Part shown: positions 9,207-63,594 of the stretch, in pieces | How positions within the stretch are numbered: the first letter of the stretch is position 1 | How the letters are laid out: every line of letters starts with the position of its first letter | Assembly: GCA_027490925.1 (NCBI GenBank) | Contig: JAIXXF010000022.1 | Span: 1 to 64,000 of the forward strand | Source of the DNA: Comamonadaceae bacterium | GTDB taxonomy: Bacteria > Pseudomonadota > Gammaproteobacteria > Burkholderiales > Burkholderiaceae_C | DNA: 64,000 bases | Direction: 5' to 3' | Notes under the pieces: generated by a model | Told to the model about the DNA's origin: nothing | What the model saw: only the letters and a program-made list of their open reading frames with translations | Database searches by the model: none | Translations under genes and position numbers: made by a program

Positions 9207-10262
9207 TCAGCCGCGGGCGTCGAATTGCAGGATCGCCGATGCCATTCGATCCAGGGGCAAGATGTCGTTGATTGCGCCCAGCTTGATGGCCTCTTTGGGC
9301 ATGCCGAACACCACGCAAGTGGCTTCGTCTTGCGCCAAAGTGCGCGCACCACCGTCGTGCAATTGCTTCATTCCACGGGCGCCGTCGTCCCCCATTCCGG
9401 TCAAGATGATGGCCAGCAAATCCTTGCCCGCACATTCGGCGGCCGATTTGAACAGCACATCGACCGAGGGCGTGTGCCGGTTGACCGGCGGTCCTTCGAC
9501 CACCTTCGCAAAGTACTGGCCCGCTGCCTTGCGCAGCTGCAAGTGGCGGCCGCCCGGGGCGATCAAGACCACCCCACGTTCAAGGCGGTCGCCGTCTTTG
9601 GCCTCCCGTACATTCATCGCGCAAATGCCATTCAGGCGTTGGGCATACATCGCAGTGAACTTTTCGGGCATGTGCTGGACAATGGCGATTCCGGGGCTGT
9701 CTGCAGGCAGCGCTGTGATGATCGCCTCCAAGGCTTGGGTTCCGCCCGTCGAACTGCCGATGACCACCGGCTTGTTCACGGCCAAAGCGTGCAGGCCTGC
9801 TGCTGGAGCGGTTGGGGCTGCACGCCCAGCCGGTACCGGCTTGCGAACCGCCGCATTGCGCGGGTTGGCACGCGCCGCGCTTTTCAGCGTTTGCACCAGC
9901 TCACGGCGTGACTCTTCCAAAAACTGCTTCAAGCCCAGACGCGGCTTGGCCACCACCGCCACGGCCCCCGCCGACAACGCCTCCAGGGCAACCGAGCTGC
10001 CCCGCTCGGTGAGCGTGGAACAAATCACGGTCGGAATCGGGTCGTCGGCCATGATTTGCCGCAAGAAGGTGAGCCCATCCATACCTGGCATCTCAATGTC
10101 AAGCAGTAACACATCGGGCCGCTGCTTGCGGATTGCAGGGCCAGCAATCAGCGGGTTGGGCGCGCTGCCCATCAGCGCGATGTCGGGGTCGCCCTGCAGC
10201 AAGTGCATGACGGTCTGGCGCACCACCGCTGAGTCGTCCACCACATAAACCTGTACCGTCAT
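9207..10262 (-). CDS. cheB: CheB methylesterase/deamidase, cluster A
   Basis: Predicted 351 aa. It removes methyl groups from chemoreceptor glutamates when phosphorylated by CheA. An N-terminal receiver domain has the phospho-acceptor D55 in [12 protein letters not shown]. After a linker, the catalytic domain has the active serine S171 in GSSTGGT, H in VQHMPE and D in TGMGDDG. It is the last gene of cluster A and overlaps cheD by four bases (ATGA), so the two are translationally coupled. A second CheB is at 55654-56718. Confidence 0.97.
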
Positions 10263-10738
10263 GCGGCCACCTCGACGTTGACCGAGGTCACTTCAGGCAA
10301 GCAGGTGCCCACGGTCCAGGCGAGTCGCCGGTAACTGCTTCCACCCACATCGTGCTGCACGACCGTTATGCCGTCCTGGGCGAGGGCGCTGAGCGCCCAA
10401 TCGGCGTTGGCTTGCCCAACATGCCGGCCAGACATGACCACCGACGGAAACATGTTCCCACCGCCATACACGTAGGCCTCGCACATGCGAGGGTTGATGC
10501 CGTGTGCCGCCAAGCCCTTGTACATCGCGTTCAGCGCGTTGGCCGCATAAGCGGTGTTGTCTGACGCATCGCCAGCGCCACCAGACGGGTGAACAATGTG
10601 ACACATGGCGCCCAGAGTCCGCCTCGGGTCGGTGAGGATGATGGCTACGCAAGATCCCAACAGGGTCTCAAGCCGGTCGCCTCGGGTTCCCAGTGCCACG
10701 TCGCCTGGATGCAGTGTGTGCATCGTCGAATCGGTCAT
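10259..10738 (-). CDS. cheD: CheD receptor glutamine deamidase, cluster A
   Basis: Predicted 159 aa from the ATG at 10738, chosen because it overlaps the cheR stop (ATGA) and gives a normal CheD length; the frame stays open further upstream only as a shadow of cheR. CheD converts receptor glutamines to glutamates. The catalytic Cys C30 in LLGSCVAI and H47 in AMCHIV are spaced 17 residues apart as in the family. It is shorter than the second CheD (56725-57366). Confidence 0.95.
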
Positions 10739-11547
10739 GAAGCCACCTTGCGGAATGCGCCTGGAGCCACCAGTTGCAACGGTGTTTCGCACGGCACGCG
10801 CCCTTCCGCAGTTCCAAGAAACAACAGACCTCCTGGACGCAACTGTGTCAGCACACGGTCCACCACCTCGCGCTTGGTGGGCGGGTCGAAATAGATAAGA
10901 ACGTTGCGCAAGAAGATCACATCGAACGGGCCCAGCGACTCGATCGGCTGGCAGAGGTTGAGCTGTCCAAAACGCACACGAGAGGTCAGCTTGGGGCTGA
11001 TTTGCACCAGACCCGCCGACTCCGCTTCCCCACGCAAGCAATAGCGGCGCAAACGTTCGGCCGAGACCTCGCGCAGGCGATCTTCGGGAAAAATGGCTTC
11101 GCTGGCGCTGCACAACACCCGGTCGCTGATGTCGGTGCCCAAGACAGACCACTCGGCACCGATGCGTCCCTGCGTGTGCAGGTCCGCCATGACCATGGCC
11201 ACACTGTAGGCCTCGTCACCAAAGGAACTGGCTGCACTCCACACCGACAGCGGATGGCCTTTGAGTCGGCACAGCTCGTCGCTCAGGATGTCGAAATGGG
11301 CGGGCTCTCTGAAAAAATAGGTTTCATTGGTGGTGAGCAGGTCCACCGCCATCTGAAATTCGCCGCCGTTGTCATCGCTGGCGATCAACGCCAAGTAGTC
11401 CTCGTAACCACTCATGCCCAATCGCTGCACTCGGGTGGACAGTCGGGAAGACACCAAAGGCTTCTTGCTGTCCGCGAACGACAACCCGATGGTTTGGTAC
11501 ATCAGGCCGGTGATTTTCTTGAAGGTGTCGTCGCGCATCGCGTCCAT
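10735..11547 (-). CDS. cheR: CheR receptor methyltransferase, cluster A (divergent SAM motif)
   Basis: Predicted 270 aa; methylates receptor glutamates using S-adenosylmethionine. An N-terminal helical domain is followed by TTNETYFFRE, which matches the family arginine-containing motif, and by the catalytic domain ending in DVIFLRNVLIYFD. The SAM-binding loop reads SAASSFGDEAYS where most CheR proteins, including the second copy here, have CAASTGEEPYS-like sequence: F replaces T, D replaces E and A replaces P. It is otherwise intact. It overlaps cheD by four bases; cheW is 70 bp upstream. An alternative start is the ATG three codons later. Confidence 0.95.
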   Translation of the reverse strand: MDAMRDDTFKKITGLMYQTIGLSFADSKKPLVSSRLSTRVQRLGMSGYEDYLALIASDDNGGEFQMAVDLLTTNETYFFREPAHFDILSDELCRLKGHPLSVWSAASSFGDEAYSVAMVMADLHTQGRIGAEWSVLGTDISDRVLCSASEAIFPEDRLREVSAERLRRYCLRGEAESAGLVQISPKLTSRVRFGQLNLCQPIESLGPFDVIFLRNVLIYFDPPTKREVVDRVLTQLRPGGLLFLGTAEGRVPCETPLQLVAPGAFRKVAS

Positions 11548-11617
11548 GGGATTCCTCGGTCTTCAGGGGGCGGGCGACAGTGCTCTGCGCCCCAGTGGAT
11601 ACAAAACGCTGGCGCGG

Positions 11618-12136
11618 TCAGACGGGCTCGGACGCTGGGGCGCCTTCACACAGCTGGGCCATGTCCTCGACGTCGAACGCCTTGTCGGGCTCGATCAAGA
11701 TCACAAACCGGTCAGCCACCTTGCCCATGCCCCGGATGAAATCTCGGCGGACGGCAGTACCAAAGTTGGGCGGTGGTTCAATCTGCGACGCAGCGATCTC
11801 GATCACTTCGCTCACTGCATCCACCAACAGCCCCAGCTCAACCCGCTCGCCGTCGCGTACCGTGTCAAAAATGACGATGCAGGTTTTCTTGCTGACCAAC
11901 GCCGATGGCCGCCCGAAGCGGGCCTGCAAATCGATGACTGGTACCACCGCCCCGCGCAGGTTGATGACGCCGCGCACAAAACCTGGCATCAAAGGCACCG
12001 TGGTCATCGGCCCGTACTGAATGATTTCGCGAACGGTTCGGATGTCCATGGCAAAGACCTCACCACCCAGGGTGAACGTCAGGTACTGGGTCGGTGTTTC
12101 GCCCTGCAGCATGGCAGGCGCTGAATCGCGTTTCAT
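11618..12136 (-). CDS. cheW: CheW coupling protein, cluster A
   Basis: Predicted 172 aa. Links receptor tips to CheA in the array. The two-barrel CheW fold shows in QYLTFTLGGEVFAMDI, the strongly conserved GVINLRGAVVPVIDL, and ERVELGLLVDAVSEV. An acidic C terminus follows. It is 12 bp downstream of the triple-PAS receptor gene and probably in the same transcript. Confidence 0.97.
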   Translation of the reverse strand: MKRDSAPAMLQGETPTQYLTFTLGGEVFAMDIRTVREIIQYGPMTTVPLMPGFVRGVINLRGAVVPVIDLQARFGRPSALVSKKTCIVIFDTVRDGERVELGLLVDAVSEVIEIAASQIEPPPNFGTAVRRDFIRGMGKVADRFVILIEPDKAFDVEDMAQLCEGAPASEPV

Positions 12137-12148
12137 GCGGCCTCCGTT

Positions 12149-14680
12149 TCAGTAAGGGCGGAAATTGCCACCTGCCACGCGCGGTGCGCCACCGCCGGTT
12201 GCCACGCGCAAGCTCGGCGCGGTGATGGGACGGCGCTTGGTGGACATGTCGGGCTCGGGGCGTCCGCGCTTGGCTGCCGCAGGCGCCTCATCACCGCCCA
12301 GGTTAAAGAAGGCGACCGATTGTTGGAGTTGCTCGGCCTGACCCGAGAGCTCCTCCGACGTGGCGGCGAGTTCCTCGGACGCCGAGGCGTTCTGCTGTGT
12401 GGCTTGACTGAGCTGTGACATCGCGCCACCGATCTGAGTCACTGACTGGCTCTGCTCCGACGAGGCCGCCGCGATTTCCTGAACCAGTTCCGAAGTCTTC
12501 TGAATAGACGGCACGATTTCATCCAGCAACTTCCCAGCCCGCTCGGCGGTGGAAACCGAGTTACCCGCCAAATCGCCAATTTCCTTTGCCGCCTCTTGGC
12601 TACGTTCAGCCAGCTTACGGACTTCCGCCGCCACGACGGCAAAGCCTTTGCCATGCTCGCCCGCCCGCGCCGCTTCAATCGCCGCGTTCAGCGCCAGCAG
12701 GTTGGTCTGGTACGCAATGTCGTCCACGATGCTGATCTTGGCGGCGATCTGCTTCATCGCCGTGACCGTCTGAGTCACAGCAGACCCGCCCTCGCCCGCC
12801 TCCTGGCTGGCCTTGGTGGCCATGCTGTCGGTGACTTTGGCGTTGTCACTGTTCTGCGAGATAGAAGCCGACATGAGGTCAATGGATGCGGTGGTCTCCT
12901 CTACAGAGGAGGCTTGCTCACTGGCCGATTGAGAGAGGCTTTGCGCGGTGGCGCTGACCTGGTTGGCTGCGCCGGTCAGCGCGTCGGCGGCGGCGCGTAC
13001 TTCTGAAATGATGCCGGCGAGCTTTTCGCAGGTGCTGTTGGCGTCGTTCTTCACTTGATCAAACGTGCCCTCTGCATCGCGGGTGATGCGCTGGCCCAAG
13101 TCGCCCGCTGCCATGGCGCTGAACACACGGCCCACATCGTCAATGATGTTGGCGAGCTTTTCGCTGGTGGCGTTGGCGTCGTCTTTGACCTGACCAAAAA
13201 TGCCTTGGTAGTCGCGGGTGATGCGCTGCGACAGGTCGCCCACCGACAACGCGCCAAACACCCTCCCGACGTCCATGAAAATCACGCCGGTGGTTTCCAT
13301 CAGGCTGTTGACGCCCGAGCACAGGATCTCGATCGGTCCGCTCTTGCCTTCCAGTGGGATCCGCTGGGTCAGGTCGCCGTCGCGGGCCGCCGAGGTCACC
13401 TGCTGCGCCTGCCTCACCGCTTCGGACAACATGTTGGATGCGATGACCTGCTCGGTCACGTCAGACGCGTACTTGACCACCTTGAACGGTTTGCCGCTCA
13501 TGTCCATGATGGGGTTGTAAGACGCTTGGATCCAAACCTCACGGCCACCCTTGCCGACCCGCTTGTATTGACCTGCATCGAACTCTCCGCGCCCTAACTT
13601 TTCCCAGAACAGGCGGTATTCCACGCTGTTGCGGTGCTCGGGATCCACAAACATACTGTGGTGCTGACCTTTGATCTCTTGCAGGGTGTAGCCCACGGTC
13701 TGCAAGAAGTTTTCGTTGGCGTTGAGAATTTTTCCGTCGAGGGTGAATTCAATCACCGCTTGAGCCTTGCGGATGGCGTCCAGTTGGCCAGAGAAATCGG
13801 CCTGTTGCAGACGGGCTTCGGTCACGTCCGTGGCGATCTTCACCACCTTGACCACCCGGCCCATCTCGTCTTTCACCGGGGCATAGACCGCTTGAATCCA
13901 CACCTCACGGCCGGCCTTTGTGATCCTCTTGAACACCTCGTTCTGTGGCTTGCCGTCCACCAGGTCTTGCCAAAACTGCCGATAGGCGGTGCTGGCGGCG
14001 TCAGTGGTGTCAACAAACAGCCGGTGGTGCTTGCCTTTGATTTCTTCAAGCTGGTAGCCCAGAAGCGCCAGGAAGTTGTGGTTGGCGTGCAGCACATGCC
14101 CACCCAAATCGAACTCAATGAACGCAAAACTTTGGTCGATGGCGTTCAAGATGCCACGGGTGTTTTGTCGCTCGAGCTCCTGCTCGGTGATGTCGTAGCG
14201 AACACCCAAGTACTTCTTGGGCTTGCCGTTTTCGCCCATGATCGGTGCGATCACTGCATCGACGTAGTACGGCGTGCCGTCTTTGGCGCGGTTTTTAACC
14301 ACCCCTCGGAAGATCTCTCCCCGGCCGATCGTCGCCCACATGTCCTTGAAAACCGACTTAGGCATATCGGGGTGCCGCGTGGTGTTGTGACCAAAGCCAA
14401 TCAACTCATTTGCGGGGTACTTGGAGACTTCTAAGAACTTCTGGTTCACCGACAGGATGTCGCCCTTTTTGTCAGCCTCTGACACGATGCTGGTCACGTT
14501 CATGATCTCGGTCCGAACCTTCAGTTCGGCCTCCAGGTCAGCGATCCTTGCCTTCATATCCGCCAAACTGGCCTCGGCGGTGATGCGCGACTGCTCACAC
14601 CGGCTGGCGGCGTCCAGCGCTTGTTGGATTTCTTGGCCTGCGACAAGGCGGGCCAGCCACGAGGTGTTGGTTTGGGTCAT
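12149..14680 (-). CDS. Cytoplasmic chemoreceptor with three PAS and tandem HAMP domains
   Basis: Predicted 843 aa methyl-accepting chemotaxis protein without any membrane segment. A short coiled coil (15-58) is followed by PAS1 (about 60-168), PAS2 (178-290) and PAS3 (300-412), then three HAMP-like units around GDLTQRI (435), GDLSQRI (481) and GDLGQRI (526), and the signalling domain (about 565-815) with the hairpin tip [20 protein letters not shown] units 2 and 3 are near repeats of each other. PAS domains of this kind often hold haem or flavin for redox or oxygen sensing, but no ligand residues can be assigned. The C terminus NFRPY fits the aromatic-x-x-aromatic tether bound by CheR. It lies between cheA and cheW of cluster A. 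The overall plan resembles BdlA- or Aer2-type soluble receptors. Confidence 0.95.
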
Positions 14681-14698: not shown

Positions 14699-16936
14699 TC
14701 AATTGGCAGCGCGGTCCACCGAACAGGCATCGCGCGCAGGTTGAAGATCGGTCCATGTCGCCTCGGCTGCCAGGCGGCTCAGCGAGTGCACATCGAAAAT
14801 GAGGGCCACTTCTCCGTTGCCCAAAATGGAGGAACCGGACATGCCCCGGAGGCTGCGGAACATGCGGCCCAAGGGCTTGATCACGGTCTGGTGCTGACCC
14901 AGCAATTGGTCCACCACCACCCCGTATCGGCCCGCTTCGTGCTGAATCACCACCACGCTGGAGCGCTCTGGCGCCGTCGAGTCAAGGGCATACAACGTGC
15001 GTAAACTGACCACCGGGAGTGTTTGGCCTCGAAGCTCCATCACACAGCGGCCGCGGGCGTCGGTGGTCGAGGTCGTGGGGCGGGTCTCGATCACCTCGAC
15101 CACAGCGTCCAGCGGAAAAATGAACTTGCTCTGGCCGACGCCGACCAAGAAGCCATCGATGATCGCCAGCGTCAAGGGCAAACGGATCTCGATCGTGCTG
15201 CCCTGCCCCTCCACGCTGGTCAGGTTGACTGTGCCGCGCAGGGCCTCGATGTTCCTGCGAACAACGTCCATGCCCACGCCGCGGCCAGAGAGGTTGGTCA
15301 CTTGCTCGGCGGTGGAGAACCCTGGTTCAAAGATCAGTTTGAGCGTCTCGCTGTCGGGTGGTGTGAATCCCCGCTCGACCAGGCCCCGCTCCCAGGCACG
15401 GGCCAGCACCTTGTCGCGGGAGATGCCCCGACCGTCGTCCTGGATCCGGATGACGATGCTGCCTCCCTCGTGGCATGCGGCGAGGGTCAACTTGCCCTGG
15501 CTCGGCTTGCCATTGGCCAGCCGGATGTCGGGGGTTTCCAGCCCGTGGTCTAACCCGTTTCGGACGAGGTGCATCAGCGGGTCGGCGATGCGTTCCACCA
15601 CCGATTTGTCCAGCTCGGTATCGCCGCCGACGATGTCTAGCAGCACATCTTTGCCAAGTTCAGACGCCGTGTCGCGTACCACCCGTCTGAAGCGGGAAAA
15701 GGTCTCCCCGATGGGCACCATGCGCAACTGCAGGGTGCCGTTGCGGATCTCTTCGATCAACCGGGTGATTTGTTGGTTGGCCTCAATCAATGCACCCTGC
15801 CGGGTTTGCCGCGCCAGCAAAGACGCCCCCGCCCCCGCAATCACCAACTCGCCAAGCAAATTGATGACCGCATCGAGCCGGTCTGCCTGTACGCGGATGA
15901 AGCGCTGGTCGTCTGGTACGGCGCCCTCGGCGCTGCGCGCGGTCCGAGGCGCGGCCATTGCAGCGCCGCTTGACTTGCTCGCGCCAGTGGCGCTTGGCTC
16001 ACCAAACGCCGTGCCCCGTTCTTCTGCGTGCGCCAACGCTTCTTCAGAATCCAACGTGGCCGGTGCAGCCACCAATGCGGCACCATCGATCAACGGTGCG
16101 CCTGTGAGCCCTGCAAGCAGCGCTGAGAAAGGCGCGCAGTGAGCCAGCCGTCGGGAGAGGTCCAGCACCTCGGCGTGCTGAGAATCGACGGAAAACACCT
16201 CCAACGCGCAGTCTTCGCTGACAAAACTGAACGCGCCTTCGATCCGCTCACGGGGTGCGTTGGTCAGCAGCGCCAGCAACAAGTCCCAATGGCAGGATTC
16301 GGCATCCACCGAGTCCAATGCTGGAATGGCATCGAGGTCGGCAGCGACAGCAGACACCTCGCCCAACCCTTGCAGATAAGCCAAGATGGCCGCTGGGTCC
16401 ATGCCGTTTCGGAACGTGTCCAAACCGAAACGTGCGGAGATGGCCCAGCGACATGCGATGGGTGGTGCGGCCTCCAGATCTGGAACCATCGTGCCAGGCG
16501 ACGCTGCACCACCGCTCCCCGCTCCGGTCACGGCTGTCAGCCGCGCCACCAGTTGATCGCGCACCGGCTGGCCCGCTGGAAGCGCGGGGTCAATGCCCGC
16601 TGCCACCAGCACGCGGATCTGGTCGTTGCACTGCAGCAGCAGTGTGCTGAGATCTGGTGTGAGCGTCACTTCGCCTTCGCGCATCCGGTCGAGCAGGGTC
16701 TCAACGTGGTGCGTGAAAGCCACCACCCGGTCCAGGCCAAAAATACCCGCAGATCCTTTGACGGTGTGGGCGCATCGGAACAAAGCGTCCAGAACGCCTC
16801 GGTCGGTGGGGTTGTCTTCCAATTGCAGCATCAGCTGCTCGATCGTTTCGATCTGCTCCTGCGCCTCGCTGATGAAGGCCGGTAAGGCCTCTGCGATGAA
16901 GCTGCTGTCACTGTCTTCTTGGGGGGTGGTGCTCAT
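14699..16936 (-). CDS. cheA: CheA sensor histidine kinase, cluster A
   Basis: Predicted 745 aa from the ATG at 16936, which overlaps the STAS gene stop and starts MSTTPQEDSD; the frame runs further upstream but reads as low-complexity shadow sequence. The Hpt domain has the phospho-accepting H57 in CAHTVKGSAG. A CheY/CheB-binding region (about 165-275) and a linker follow, then the dimerisation and ATPase domains with LVRNGLDHG (N box), DDGRGIS (G1) and GRGVGMDVV (G2), and a CheW-like regulatory domain at the end. It phosphorylates the CheY at 17236-17607 and the local CheB by inference from gene order. Confidence 0.97.
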   Translation of the reverse strand: MSTTPQEDSDSSFIAEALPAFISEAQEQIETIEQLMLQLEDNPTDRGVLDALFRCAHTVKGSAGIFGLDRVVAFTHHVETLLDRMREGEVTLTPDLSTLLLQCNDQIRVLVAAGIDPALPAGQPVRDQLVARLTAVTGAGSGGAASPGTMVPDLEAAPPIACRWAISARFGLDTFRNGMDPAAILAYLQGLGEVSAVAADLDAIPALDSVDAESCHWDLLLALLTNAPRERIEGAFSFVSEDCALEVFSVDSQHAEVLDLSRRLAHCAPFSALLAGLTGAPLIDGAALVAAPATLDSEEALAHAEERGTAFGEPSATGASKSSGAAMAAPRTARSAEGAVPDDQRFIRVQADRLDAVINLLGELVIAGAGASLLARQTRQGALIEANQQITRLIEEIRNGTLQLRMVPIGETFSRFRRVVRDTASELGKDVLLDIVGGDTELDKSVVERIADPLMHLVRNGLDHGLETPDIRLANGKPSQGKLTLAACHEGGSIVIRIQDDGRGISRDKVLARAWERGLVERGFTPPDSETLKLIFEPGFSTAEQVTNLSGRGVGMDVVRRNIEALRGTVNLTSVEGQGSTIEIRLPLTLAIIDGFLVGVGQSKFIFPLDAVVEVIETRPTTSTTDARGRCVMELRGQTLPVVSLRTLYALDSTAPERSSVVVIQHEAGRYGVVVDQLLGQHQTVIKPLGRMFRSLRGMSGSSILGNGEVALIFDVHSLSRLAAEATWTDLQPARDACSVDRAAN

Positions 16937-17229
16937 GGCGCCTCCGGGGTTTGACTGTTGTCCACCAGCACCTCCCTCGCCCCGATGGCTGAACACGCGC
17001 TCATCAAACTGGCACTTGCAGGGAACAGCCGCCAGCCGAGGCCGCGCTGCCGAACTGCACGGTGCAGCGACACCAGCAGCTGCACGCCAGCGCCATCGAC
17101 TTGATCCACCTCGCCCCCTGCGATCTCCACGTCGTCGCTGACGTTGGCCAGCCAAGTCAGCCAATCTGTCCTCAAGTCGCCAACGGTGTAAATAGACAAT
17201 TCAGGTGGCAGTCGAAGGGTGTGGGCCAT
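16933..17229 (-). CDS. STAS-domain protein in che cluster A
   Basis: Predicted 98 aa, a single STAS domain (residues about 5-90): LSIYTVGDL at the start, then EIAGGEVDQVDGAGVQLLVSL, the segment equivalent to the anti-anti-sigma phosphorylation site. The usual DSSG- or DTAG-like site reads DGAG, so the phospho-acceptor Ser/Thr is absent. It is encoded between cheY and cheA and overlaps cheA by four bases (ATGA), so its product is likely made in proportion to CheA. STAS genes occur in other che clusters, but their role there is not well defined. An MlaB-like lipid-transport role is unlikely given the neighbours. Confidence 0.8.
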   Translation of the reverse strand: MAHTLRLPPELSIYTVGDLRTDWLTWLANVSDDVEIAGGEVDQVDGAGVQLLVSLHRAVRQRGLGWRLFPASASLMSACSAIGAREVLVDNSQTPEAP

Positions 17230-17235
17230 GGCGCC

Positions 17236-17607
17236 TCAGGGAAGGATGAGCTTGGACACGGCGTCCAACAGCTGAGGTGGGTTAAAGGGCTTGACGATCC
17301 AGGCTTTGGCGCCGGCGGCACGACCCTGCTCTTTCTTGGCGTCTTGTCCTTCGGTGGTCAACATGATCACCGGCGTGAACTTGTGACGCGGGTGTTGCTT
17401 GACCTGAGAGACAAAGGTGATGCCATCCATGTTGGGCATGTTCACGTCGCTCACAATCAGGTTCACTTTGGCCACACTGTCGAGCTTGGCCAGTGCCTCC
17501 ACGCCGTCACCTGCCTCGTGAACGTCGTAGCCTGCGCGGGTGAGGGCCAACTTGACCACTGTGCGGAGCGAGGACGAGTCATCGACGATGAGAATGGTTT
17601 TGGCCAT
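17236..17607 (-). CDS. cheY: CheY-like response regulator, cluster A
   Basis: Predicted 123 aa, a stand-alone receiver. Acidic pocket D9-D10 (LIVDDSS), phospho-acceptor D54 in IVSDVNMPNMDG, and K106 in VKPF are all present. It is more like the CheY of cluster B (62770-63132) than the motor-type CheY beside cheZ (38296-38694). It may control the motor, act as a phosphate sink, or pass signals elsewhere. It lies 6 bp before the STAS gene. Confidence 0.93.
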   Translation of the reverse strand: MAKTILIVDDSSSLRTVVKLALTRAGYDVHEAGDGVEALAKLDSVAKVNLIVSDVNMPNMDGITFVSQVKQHPRHKFTPVIMLTTEGQDAKKEQGRAAGAKAWIVKPFNPPQLLDAVSKLILP

Positions 17608-17618
17608 GCGCGTTGGGG

Positions 17619-18713
17619 TCAGAAAAATGTCGTTTCGCTACCGCCCGCAGAGGTGGTTTGAACCGCCTCCCCTCTGGCGACAGCGCGTTGTTCATCGGTC
17701 GTGTAGCCCGCACTGAGCAACTCCGACCACTCGGTATCGGCAGGGACGTTGCCTGTGGCAGCGGCCTGTTGCAGCCGGGCGGCCGCGCTCGCCATCGAGT
17801 CGCAGACCTGGGTCATGATTTGGTGCACCCGGTCCTGGAACTGGAACGACACCATGAGTTGCTCCACCTGCGCCTTGATCACCTCGCCCCGTGCGCACAA
17901 CTCCGCCGCTCTCTGGTTCAGTGCGGAAACGGTGTCTTCCACTTGGCCCATCACTTCACCAATGGTGGCTTCCGACGCCTTGATGGCGTCGGCATCTCGG
18001 GCGGAGTACTCGGACGCATGCACCAGCGCGGATTGCATGCTGCCGGTGAAATCCTGTACCTGCCCGCTGATGCGCCGACCAGTCTCGCCCGACTCGCTGG
18101 ACAAGCGCCTCACCTCGGCGGCCACCACCGCGAAGCCCCGTCCGCTGGGACCCGCCCGCGCCGCCTCGATGGCGGCGTTGATCGACAGAAGGTTGGTGTG
18201 GCGGGCCAGCTTGGCCACGTCCTCAGCCATTTCAGTGAGCCGACCTGAGGCTGCTGACAGGGTCTTGACAGACCCCAACACCTGGTCACGCGACTCCACA
18301 AAGGCCTGGAAATTCGCCAGAAGCCCATGCAATTTGGCCTCACAACTCGACAGCATCCGCGCACGCTGGTCCAACTCGGCTTCTGTACCGGTGCCGTTCG
18401 TCTGTGGCTGCGCCGAACCGGTGATGTGCTCGAGCTCGTTCAAGATGTTGGTGAAGCCAGCCAACAGGTTCTCGGTGGCTTCCCGCATCTGGATTTGCGC
18501 GGTACCCAAATGGGTGGTCCAGGTGTGAACCGCTTGGCCCAAGCGCTCGGCGAGTTGGGAATTCAGCGGGACATTTGTAGCGGCGCCTACTGCGCTGGGG
18601 CCCGATCGGAACCAGCCTTGCGCCGCCCGCGCCCAGCCGCTCCAACGCCTGCCAGCGCGGCGGCGCGCCTCGCCGGGCCAGCTGCTCACCTGAGCGAGAA
18701 AAGTGGCGCTCAT
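17619..18713 (-). CDS. Soluble receptor-like protein with CheZ-like DxxxQ helix
   Basis: Predicted 364 aa from the ATG at 18713. There is no membrane segment and no recognisable sensor domain. A degenerate receptor signalling hairpin is clear ([20 protein letters not shown] and [18 protein letters not shown]). The helix that follows carries [11 protein letters not shown], in which D294 and Q298 repeat the spacing of the CheZ active-site pair (D-x-x-x-Q), and the protein ends in ETTFF after a flexible linker. A motif helix plus a short aromatic C-terminal tail is the layout of CheZ. It is the first gene of cluster A, 11 bp before cheY, behind a sigma-28-like promoter. It could be an adaptor or sensor instead; phosphatase activity is inference. 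Confidence 0.75.
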
Positions 18714-37665: not shown

Positions 37666-38280
37666 TCAGAAGCCGAGGCTCTCCAGCATTTCGTCAACCT
37701 GAGCCTGGTTGGACACCACATCTTGGCGGCTGGGATCGGCCACCGGCCCTTGCAAACCTTCCGCCTGGATCTGGGCCCGCTCATCCGGCGGGGTGGCGTC
37801 CAGCAGCAGCTGCACCAGTGAGTCTTCCAACGTGGTGGCGATCTCCACCACCTTGCGGATGGTTTGGCCAGTGAGATCGTGAAAGTCCTGCGCCAGCATG
37901 ATGTCGGTCAATTGCGCGCCCACGTCTTGCGCCGTGCCGCGCACGGACCCTACAAAAGTTTTCATCTCCTGCCGCAGCGTGGCATCGTCGCTGCCCGCGT
38001 TCAACAGGCCCTCCAAGCGGTTGGCCTCCTGAATGAGCGCGTTTTGCTGCAACTGGGCGTTGTCCACCGTGTTGAGTACCTTCTCAGCCGCCTCGCCGGT
38101 CAGGCGGGCAATGAAGCTCAGGCGGGAACGCGCATCTGGCAGGGTGCCGATGGAGTGTTCGATCTGCTTGTCGTAACCCAATTCTTTTAGCGCATCGTGC
38201 AGGCTGCGGGTCAGGTTACCGATGCGCTGGAACACATCAAACGGCTCGGCGGTGGTCGGGGTCAAATCGTGGTCTGGCAT
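37666..38280 (-). CDS. cheZ: CheZ, CheY-P phosphatase
   Basis: Predicted 204 aa. The catalytic helix reads QDFHDLTGQTI, with the active residues D135 and Q139 (D143 and Q147 in E. coli CheZ). The C-terminal CheY-binding peptide ends QVDEMLESLGF. It forms an elongated helical dimer that dephosphorylates CheY-P. It is placed after the motor-type cheY and not in either che cluster. Confidence 0.98.
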   Translation of the reverse strand: MPDHDLTPTTAEPFDVFQRIGNLTRSLHDALKELGYDKQIEHSIGTLPDARSRLSFIARLTGEAAEKVLNTVDNAQLQQNALIQEANRLEGLLNAGSDDATLRQEMKTFVGSVRGTAQDVGAQLTDIMLAQDFHDLTGQTIRKVVEIATTLEDSLVQLLLDATPPDERAQIQAEGLQGPVADPSRQDVVSNQAQVDEMLESLGF

Positions 38281-56724: not shown

Positions 56725-57366
56725 CTAGAACAGTTCAATGTCGCCGGCTGGCGGTGTCGTCAGCAATTGCTTGCGGTAACTCGATTCTTGCAACTGCAGC
56801 TCCACCACACTGGCCGGTGCCAAACGCTTGCACATCACCTTGCCGCTGTCGGGGAACAAGCACACCTTGCGCGGGTACACGTCCAACACGTCGCACCCCA
56901 TGATGGGGATGCGCTCACGCGCGAGGAAAGACTCGACGAAGGCCACGTTCTTTTCGCCAATCTGAGTGGACGCCAAGCTCTTCATCACCTGCCCACCACC
57001 AAAGATCTTGGCTTCCAGCGACTCCCTGCGGGCACCACGCTTGAACAGCTCATTCATCAGCAGTTCCATGGCGAACACACCGAACCGCCCGCTGGCGCTT
57101 TCTTGGTTGTCACCATCGGGCAGCATGAAGTGGTTCAAGCCACCCACCCGGGCTTGGCGATCGAACAAACAGGCGGCCACGCACGAACCCAGTGTGGTCA
57201 GTACCACGATCGGCTCCGACGACACGAAGTACTCCCCGGGCAAGACCTTCACAGCCGCTCTCTGGAATGAATGCTCCAGGTAGAAAAACGATGCTTGATG
57301 GTCTTTGTCCGGCGTGCGGCGCAAGGCGGCAAGCTCGGGCGGTTCAGCGCGCAGGGTGTGGCCCAT
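56725..57366 (-). CDS. cheD: CheD receptor glutamine deamidase, cluster B
   Basis: Predicted 213 aa, the length common in betaproteobacteria. C62 in TTLGSCVAAC and H79 in GGLNHFMLP are 17 residues apart as in the family, and KIFGGGQVM is conserved. It shares one base with the cheR stop codon (TGATG). Confidence 0.97.
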   Translation of the reverse strand: MGHTLRAEPPELAALRRTPDKDHQASFFYLEHSFQRAAVKVLPGEYFVSSEPIVVLTTLGSCVAACLFDRQARVGGLNHFMLPDGDNQESASGRFGVFAMELLMNELFKRGARRESLEAKIFGGGQVMKSLASTQIGEKNVAFVESFLARERIPIMGCDVLDVYPRKVCLFPDSGKVMCKRLAPASVVELQLQESSYRKQLLTTPPAGDIELF

Positions 57367-63159: not shown

Positions 63160-63594
63160 TTAGAAGAAATCGATGCTGCCTGCGTGCACATCGGTCTGCT
63201 CAATGGGGCGTGGCAGCTTGTCATTGGCGCCAAGCGGCTCCGTCAGCGCCGACGGCGAGGAAGCGTCGGAGGACACCGCCGCGAGCGTCGACAAGCGCGA
63301 CTGGGCGTGGATGAGCTTTTGCTGCGCGATGTCTTCGAATTGCAGCGCAATACCCGCTTCTGACAGCGCTTGGCGAACCGCCTGGTGCTGTTCAGACAGG
63401 CTGAGCGCCTCGGGTCCTGTCACCAGGCGCGAGGCTTCTGCAAAGCAGGCGAACAGGCGGCGAGAGGCATGGCTCAACAAGCCTTCCAACTCACTGAGCT
63501 GCGCCGACACGGCCAGCAGTTCAGCGGCCACCGCCGGATGGGCCGGGGTTTCGTTGGCTGAGCCACACGGGCAAGTGCACATTCGGTGTTCCAT
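63160..63594 (-). CDS. Small Cys-rich protein with CheZ-like DxxxQ motif
   Basis: Predicted 144 aa; not recognised as a named family. The ATG at 63594 is preferred because a sigma-28-like -10 (63623-63630) would start transcription downstream of the alternative ATG at 63678. The N terminus MEHRMCTCPCGS has three closely spaced cysteines that could bind a metal. Residues 20-105 are predicted helical; residues 84-96 read LQFEDIAQQKLIH, where D88 and Q92 repeat the CheZ D-x-x-x-Q spacing. A flexible linker leads to a C terminus SIDFF, like the short aromatic tail with which CheZ binds CheY. It is the first gene of cluster B, the same place held in cluster A by the protein at 17619-18713. Phosphatase function is inference only. 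Confidence 0.65.
   Translation of the reverse strand: MEHRMCTCPCGSANETPAHPAVAAELLAVSAQLSELEGLLSHASRRLFACFAEASRLVTGPEALSLSEQHQAVRQALSEAGIALQFEDIAQQKLIHAQSRLSTLAAVSSDASSPSALTEPLGANDKLPRPIEQTDVHAGSIDFF

Follow-up and report, generated by a model that had tools for sequence, protein, structure and literature searches.

What does a receptor signalling hairpin do when it carries a CheZ-like motif and seems to have no sensor? This question was raised by P0001, a protein of 364 aa encoded at 17619-18713 on the minus strand of the window, the window being the whole stretch of 64,000 nucleotides that was analysed. The gene has an ATG start and reads from 18713 to 17619. An earlier note, made from the sequence letters, had placed it at these positions and had proposed an array-anchored signal terminator. 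The coordinates held, but the strand had to be corrected to minus; the forward reading of 17619-18713 contains stop codons.

A receptor hairpin followed by a DxxxQ helix

MCPsignal was the sole Pfam family above cut-off in P0001, with 75.8 bits at residues 143-286 against a cut-off of 34.6. The receptor tip, a signature of 15 residues at positions 174-188 (18150-18194, minus strand), lies inside this domain. No sensor, ligand-binding or HAMP domain was found by Pfam, and no membrane segment was found upstream of residue 54, where the best 19-residue hydropathy mean was 1.05. The earlier note had described both the recognisable tip and the lack of a ligand domain or membrane segment, and both descriptions were borne out. 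The anchorless form applies to P0001, but it is not a general trait. A hydrophobic N-terminal stretch with a 19-residue hydropathy mean of at least 1.5 was present in 28 of 36 aligned rows (P0001 among the 36), these rows being frames from stop to stop, which may include residues from ahead of the true start. In the relatives, this stretch looks like a short membrane anchor, which P0001 does not have.

The C-terminal third comprises three elements, all read on the minus strand. The motif helix of 11 residues is located at positions 290-300 (17814-17846), and its D294 and Q298 align with D143 and Q147 of CheZ. A linker motif of 19 residues (17670-17726) follows the family pattern Y[TAS][TM]xE[QE], the Y being invariant in 28/28 aligned proteins. 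The tail ETTFF (17622-17636) ends the protein; the commonest forms in the family are x[IV]TFF and x[IV]ELF. Motif and tail were found as the earlier note had reported them. A match to the CheZ profile (PF04344) was not found in P0001 by Pfam at E up to 1.

The AF2 model of P0001 was of modest quality (pLDDT 71, pTM 0.39) and mostly helical, with helices at residues 50-99, 109-190 and 192-320. Using VIA-align, it matched the receptor cytoplasmic domains 2ch7 (39-322), 8c5v (43-314) and 3zx6 (45-316) with Z values of about 11-12 and rmsd of 12-14. Many unrelated coiled coils were matched at equal Z, and CheZ was not among the listed structure matches. The structure comparison weakly supports a receptor-like hairpin for P0001.

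Genomic neighbourhood

On one strand, P0001 is followed by genes in the order cheY-STAS-cheA-mcp-cheW-cheR-cheD-cheB, all of them on the minus strand of the window. The cheY gene (17236-17607) starts 11 b past the stop codon of P0001. It is followed by a STAS-domain protein identified by Pfam (16933-17229) and by cheA (14699-16936), for which the start was picked by hand as the ATG overlapping the STAS stop. The receptor of this operon (12149-14680) is of the PAS type, a domain name assigned by eye and from the earlier note. It has an ordinary C-helix and the tail GNFRPY, as read in the same-genome locus L007. The genes cheW, cheR, cheD and cheB (9207-12136) were named by eye from the sequence. 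By this gene order, P0001 lies beside che genes of apparent F7 type.

The window holds further genes of this kind. An ordinary CheZ is encoded at 37666-38280 (minus strand), with its own cheY from 38296 onward. A stand-alone DxxxQ protein of 144 aa (63160-63594, minus strand; LQFEDIAQQKL, tail SIDFF) lies upstream of the cheY and cheA of a second cluster. Thus, cheY is preceded by the gene of an FF-tailed DxxxQ protein in both cheA-containing clusters of the window. The CheD of the second cluster (56725-57366, minus strand) has the C-terminus GDIELF.

Conservation of the motif among orthologues

A set of 29 proteins was selected by similarity. It comprised 22 loci from the genomes of 100 relatives, L013 to L034 with L013 as the window's own (E at or below 1.2e-27), and seven loci from contigs of named genomes. 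The D and the Q were kept in 28/29 proteins, P0001 included. Invariant columns in the C-terminal region of these 28 were one V, the Q, Q, D, R and Q of QFQDRxxQ and one linker Y. The sole exception was L033 (also L099; G067:C32), which had neither motif nor tail and was for this reason left out of the alignment. Neither cheY nor cheA was found near it; the only reference che genes detected there were cheR and cheD. L037 and L042 of the same genome search were tip-only matches and were set aside before the alignment, and the tail of L045 was cut by its contig. Homologues with sensor domains and without the motif, which in the earlier note would have spoken against its proposal, did not emerge from this set, as 28 of its 29 proteins hold the motif.

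A second subfamily of seven proteins carried QF(Q/Y)DxxxQ in 7/7 cases and ended in IELF. One of them, L009 (G000:C46:32346-32762), originates from the same genome as P0001. It has QFQDINRQ and the tail RIELF and closes a third che-like cluster in which cheA and cheY precede it. Named examples of motif and tail, each annotated just as methyl-accepting chemotaxis protein, were SFA35_RS25230 of Pseudomonas sp. HR96 and NUT31_RS21900 of Aeromonas sp. BC14. Genes for a response regulator, STAS, CheA, MCP and CheW were located downstream of each. In the phylum search (74/398 genomes), full-length matches with E < 1e-20 were confined to the class of the window; outside this class, many weak partial matches were obtained, often in frames of more than 1000 aa. 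A plasmid search with L038 as the query gave no match.

Register of the motif and linkage to cheY

Receptors in the fetched loci were collected by the tip pattern. They numbered 138 distinct proteins, 76 with the motif and 62 others; one ordinary receptor with a chance fit to the motif pattern at +112 was reassigned by hand to the 62. Profile scoring and neighbour counts used the 76 and 61 ordinary receptors, the moved one being excluded. The motif started exactly 105 residues past the tip signature in 71/76 proteins, and at 101-107 in the other five. Its form was FQD(3)Q in 75/76 and QYQD(3)Q in one. Since the 76 proteins were chosen by the motif, their D is present by construction, and the fair measure is the 28 of 29 given earlier. 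QFxDxxxQ after the tip occurred in none of the 62 other receptors. A bare DxxxQ occurred somewhere between +95 and +125 in 6/62, which is the chance level for a short motif. The four-letter spacing alone is therefore weak evidence, and it is the longer motif that carries weight. In six ordinary receptors, the same stretch was a methylation-type region of the form QNA..EE. On a tree of the tip region, built without the motif, the motif label needed 3 changes, compared with 33.7 for shuffled labels. This is compatible with a single origin of the motif-bearing receptors, which the tree does not itself show.

The neighbouring gene was counted for 45 distinct fused proteins of the 76, namely those in a locus of more than 6.5 kb that extends 600 b or more past the gene. 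A cheY started within 250 b downstream on the same strand in 38/45 loci and within 900 b in 41/45. The four fused proteins without cheY within 900 b were three RIELF proteins and L084.

Relation to CheZ

The CheZ of the window was aligned to 1kmi, which placed D143 and Q147 of the E. coli numbering within AQDFQDLTGQ. According to the passages covered of a study on CheZ (PMC7750401), DXXXQ is the phosphatase motif and a conserved AXXFQ directly precedes it. The FQ before DxxxQ is common to CheZ and the motif receptors. In single hhalign comparisons, the motif family aligned weakly with CheZ, at E values of 0.0068 and 0.0027 (probability 6 and 11%), and the D and the Q of the motif fell on those of CheZ. 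As controls, the motif family against ordinary receptors gave E 0.0058 (6%), and ordinary receptors against CheZ gave 0.23 and aligned elsewhere. Because the score against ordinary receptors was equally good, the score does not single out CheZ, and only the register speaks for it. More than 5 bits with the CheZ profile were obtained for 33/76 motif receptors (best 19.2) versus 2/61 others (best 7.9). The CheZ model of NCBIfam matched the own-genome paralogue L009 at 7.3e-4, far below cut-off, as the only one of five members scanned; P0001, L038, L028 and L036 gave no match at E up to 1, and neither did L180 and L181 at 0.01. Profile and hhalign scores thus favour a CheZ-like element, though they are driven by the motif and do not prove homology to CheZ. 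PDB sequence searches with two C-terminal profiles returned no CheZ among the matches listed, which were apparent chance coiled coils and a weak receptor match, 3g6b (E 0.31).

In overall layout, CheZ (PF04344; E. coli CheZ, 1kmi) resembles P0001 in having FQDxxxQ on a long helix, followed by a linker and a conserved C-terminal peptide. The two differ in that the CheZ hairpin is replaced by a receptor tip in P0001, which gives no Pfam match to CheZ, and in the tail. S-L-G-F was invariant in the tails of 25 aligned CheZ sequences, whereas the P0001 tail ETTFF is without an LLxSLGF-type peptide and unlike the CheZ tail VDDLLESLGF. E. coli CheZ is recruited to the array by CheA, as described in the part of PMC7750401 covered. 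A phosphatase located at the array is also what is proposed for P0001; in E. coli, the recruited phosphatase is a separate protein, whereas in P0001 the phosphatase motif lies within the receptor.

Ordinary CheZ in the same genomes

PF04344 was also present in 22/22 orthologue genomes, the own genome counted and G034 and G051 included by weak partial matches. Among the class genomes with a fused protein, it was present in 28/30 (own counted; compared by eye), G402 and G417 being without it. A role of the P0001 family as a replacement of CheZ was rejected on these counts. Close to the genes, CheZ was rarely seen. In the 45 loci, tblastn detected no cheZ but the window's own, 19 kb from P0001. 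With the Pfam CheZ profile, G034 showed a weak CheZ-like match at a distance of about 9 kb from the gene, within L096, and G349 a strong one at about 6 kb, so that the absence of cheZ nearby is common but not universal. With a normal CheZ in the genome, P0001 is an extra DxxxQ protein, and the need for a second phosphatase is not obvious. A normal CheZ in all 22 orthologue genomes, its own included, argues for a pathway-specific role. P0001 might, for example, clear the CheY made by the CheA of its cluster, or prevent cross-talk.

McpA-like receptors and other known systems

A receptor group with similar properties was described by Ortega et al. 2020 (PMC7184735). According to the sections of this paper covered here, McpA/CttP/PA0180 and VCA1088 are the second receptor of F7 (Aer2) clusters, with a membrane region and no heptad class. 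Deletion of McpA-like receptors left F7 arrays in two species, and they were not needed for the array. A CheR pentapeptide motif occurred in 0/40 McpA-like sequences, and the valine at the second place of the McpA tail prevented interaction with any of four CheRs. Their C-terminus shows striking conservation, which was read there as an important yet unclear role; a phosphatase reading is absent from those sections. In the stage 1-2 genomes of the same study, cheZ occurred only with F6 systems. As far as the cited part of a V. cholerae review goes, VCA1088 is given as 24H and work is cited that puts McpA in the F6 array. CttP is tabulated in print as a chloroethylene receptor.

L180 to L182, from three genomes, served as stand-ins for this group. 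They encode a receptor in the McpA slot with LQFQDMSSQ at +105, the C-terminus GEVELF and a valine at the second place, located 139-172 b upstream of cheY. The main receptor of the cluster ends in DWEEF, and that of L180 matches Aer2 structures. McpA-like receptors therefore probably carry the motif, a statement that draws on these stand-ins. P0001 matched L180 at E 1.4e-13, which lies outside the published clustering rule of 1e-30 with PA0180, so that P0001 belongs to a sister subfamily rather than to the McpA-like receptors. Judged against the covered text of PMC7184735, it shares with them the MCP hairpin, a gene in an F7 cluster, the conserved C-terminus and the lack of a CheR pentapeptide; it differs in having no membrane helix and in the tail TTFF instead of VELF. 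The pentapeptide -x-[HFYW]-x(2)-[HFYW] is absent from P0001, as ETTFF has T at the second place.

A further DXXXQ protein is CheT of Sinorhizobium meliloti (Agbekudzi et al. 2024). As summarised in the part of a review covered (PMC12654446), it enhances the dephosphorylation of one CheY. Like P0001, CheT is a non-CheZ DXXXQ protein of a che operon. Unlike P0001, it complexes with CheR and no receptor domain is mentioned in that part of the review, the two proteins being compared by description only.

Stand-alone forms and tail types

The class-wide search (69/369 genomes) yielded 30 loci with a long frame of the fused type. QFQDxxxQ was present in 30/30, and the tip signature in 26; four frames of similar length miss the tip pattern. 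Short frames came from other genomes, and the 20 that were fetched (174-308 codons) carried QF[QYH]DxxxQ in 20/20 and the tail in 19/20 cases. The profile that retrieved both kinds of frame itself includes the motif. Short stand-alone proteins matched no family above cut-off, as scanned with five proteins in Pfam and eight in NCBIfam. Recognisable che genes were present in some of the 20 short-frame stretches and absent from others.

The stand-alone protein of the window lies 27 b upstream of the second-cluster cheY and gave no match in Pfam (E up to 0.1) or NCBIfam (E up to 1). Its single-sequence model (pLDDT 74.7) was a hairpin of helices, the second of which carried D88 and Q92. Structure matches of this model were generic hairpins including receptor tips, and CheZ was not listed among them. 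In the PDB, its sequence gave two matches, of E 0.33 and 1.1, which were taken as chance. The tail type of the DxxxQ proteins was also seen in CheD. In the fetched loci, 7/21 CheD-like frames ended in [IV][ED]LF. The tail may thus bind something other than CheY and need not mark a phosphatase. A common docking partner for the tails of CheD and the DxxxQ proteins is possible.

Proposed function and alternatives

CheZ acts on phospho-aspartyl CheY through D143 and Q147, and its C-terminal helix holds CheY. Considering the hairpin domain, motif, fixed register, conservation and operon position of P0001, we favour, with somewhat better than even confidence, its reading as a receptor-anchored, CheZ-like CheY phosphatase. 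In this view, a dimer of the chemoreceptor family would have changed from a sensor to an effector. Its intact tip hairpin would bind CheW/CheA or dock in the receptor array. About 105 residues along the C-helix, near the position of the methylation-type region in ordinary receptors, P0001 carries FQDxxxQ, the catalytic signature of CheZ. Through D294 and Q298 it would act on phospho-aspartyl CheY, presumably the product of the adjacent gene, and CheY would be held by the flexible linker and by ETTFF, a short hydrophobic tail that is conserved. The receptor state may control the phosphatase activity. An array-anchored signal terminator, as the earlier note had put it, is the best-supported mechanism; it is not a one-off arrangement, as P0001 belongs to a conserved family, just upstream of cheY in 38/45 loci. 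As many relatives share the combination, in most cases beside cheY, the protein is probably not a sensor but an off-switch that forms part of the receptor family.

Other functions were weighed against the same evidence. The phosphatase could work outside arrays, the hairpin serving just to form a long dimer and, in relatives, to contribute a membrane anchor. Within the phosphatase reading, this is the minority view and rather doubtful. It would agree with the F7 arrays that were kept in two species after deletion of McpA-like receptors and with the missing heptad class (covered text of PMC7184735; 24H for VCA1088 in the cited part of the V. cholerae review), but the tip is retained, and the study cited in that review puts McpA in the F6 array. 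It is unlikely that helix and tail form a non-catalytic docking site for CheY or another partner, the receptor serving as a scaffold or phosphate sink near CheA. The tight linkage to cheY (38/45) and the tail type on 7/21 CheD, which removes the need for a phosphatase mark, would suit such a site. The invariant polar residues, however, include the CheZ catalytic pair and the flanking FQ, in CheZ register.

An adaptation function ranks low. The tail, which occupies the position of CheR pentapeptides, would then tether CheR/CheB, and P0001 would aid the methylation of neighbouring receptors, a thought encouraged by the complex of CheT with CheR in the review (PMC12654446, part covered). Many partner receptors of the operons have aromatic tails of their own, and both the count of 0/40 McpA-like sequences with a CheR motif and the valine that blocks CheRs (PMC7184735, sections covered) argue against it, which makes this improbable. 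Slightly less probable still is an ordinary signalling receptor that senses an internal state or a partner and has a structural C-terminal motif. The intact tip and the tabulated role of CttP would fit such a receptor, but no sensor or HAMP domain was found by Pfam, and a hairpin fold does not explain the fixed D and Q of QFxDxxxQ, absent from 62/62 other receptors.

The phosphatase reading can be extended to the whole sensorless clade, including McpA/CttP-like receptors, and for this wider claim we see the chances as nearly balanced, with doubt slightly ahead. The clade would then consist of receptor-embedded CheY phosphatases, the missing terminators where clusters mostly lack cheZ. The helix would perhaps be array-gated, combining kinase and phosphatase in one lattice, and the module would also occur as a stand-alone protein, in some cases beside cheY. 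If true, this would account together for the conserved C-terminus of McpA-like receptors, their dispensability for F7 arrays and the occurrence of cheZ with F6 only, as given in the covered sections of PMC7184735. It would also recast CttP, the tabulated chloroethylene sensor. Besides CheZ and CheT, the DxxxQ phosphatases would then include proteins to which neither Pfam nor NCBIfam gives this name.

Part of this is already known, namely a receptor family of unclear role. As far as the literature was searched, it is new that this receptor family carries a CheZ-like motif in a constant position and that a stand-alone form exists. No description of a fusion of receptor and CheZ motif was found in the titles and abstract openings searched, a scope that leaves out most subscription journals, and a literature search for the letters QFQD gave nothing on chemotaxis. 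Regarding the tails, certain types seem to be paired: TFF-tailed DxxxQ receptors occur beside receptors with FxRF/FRPY tails, and ELF-tailed ones beside DWxxF-tailed (Aer2-like) receptors.
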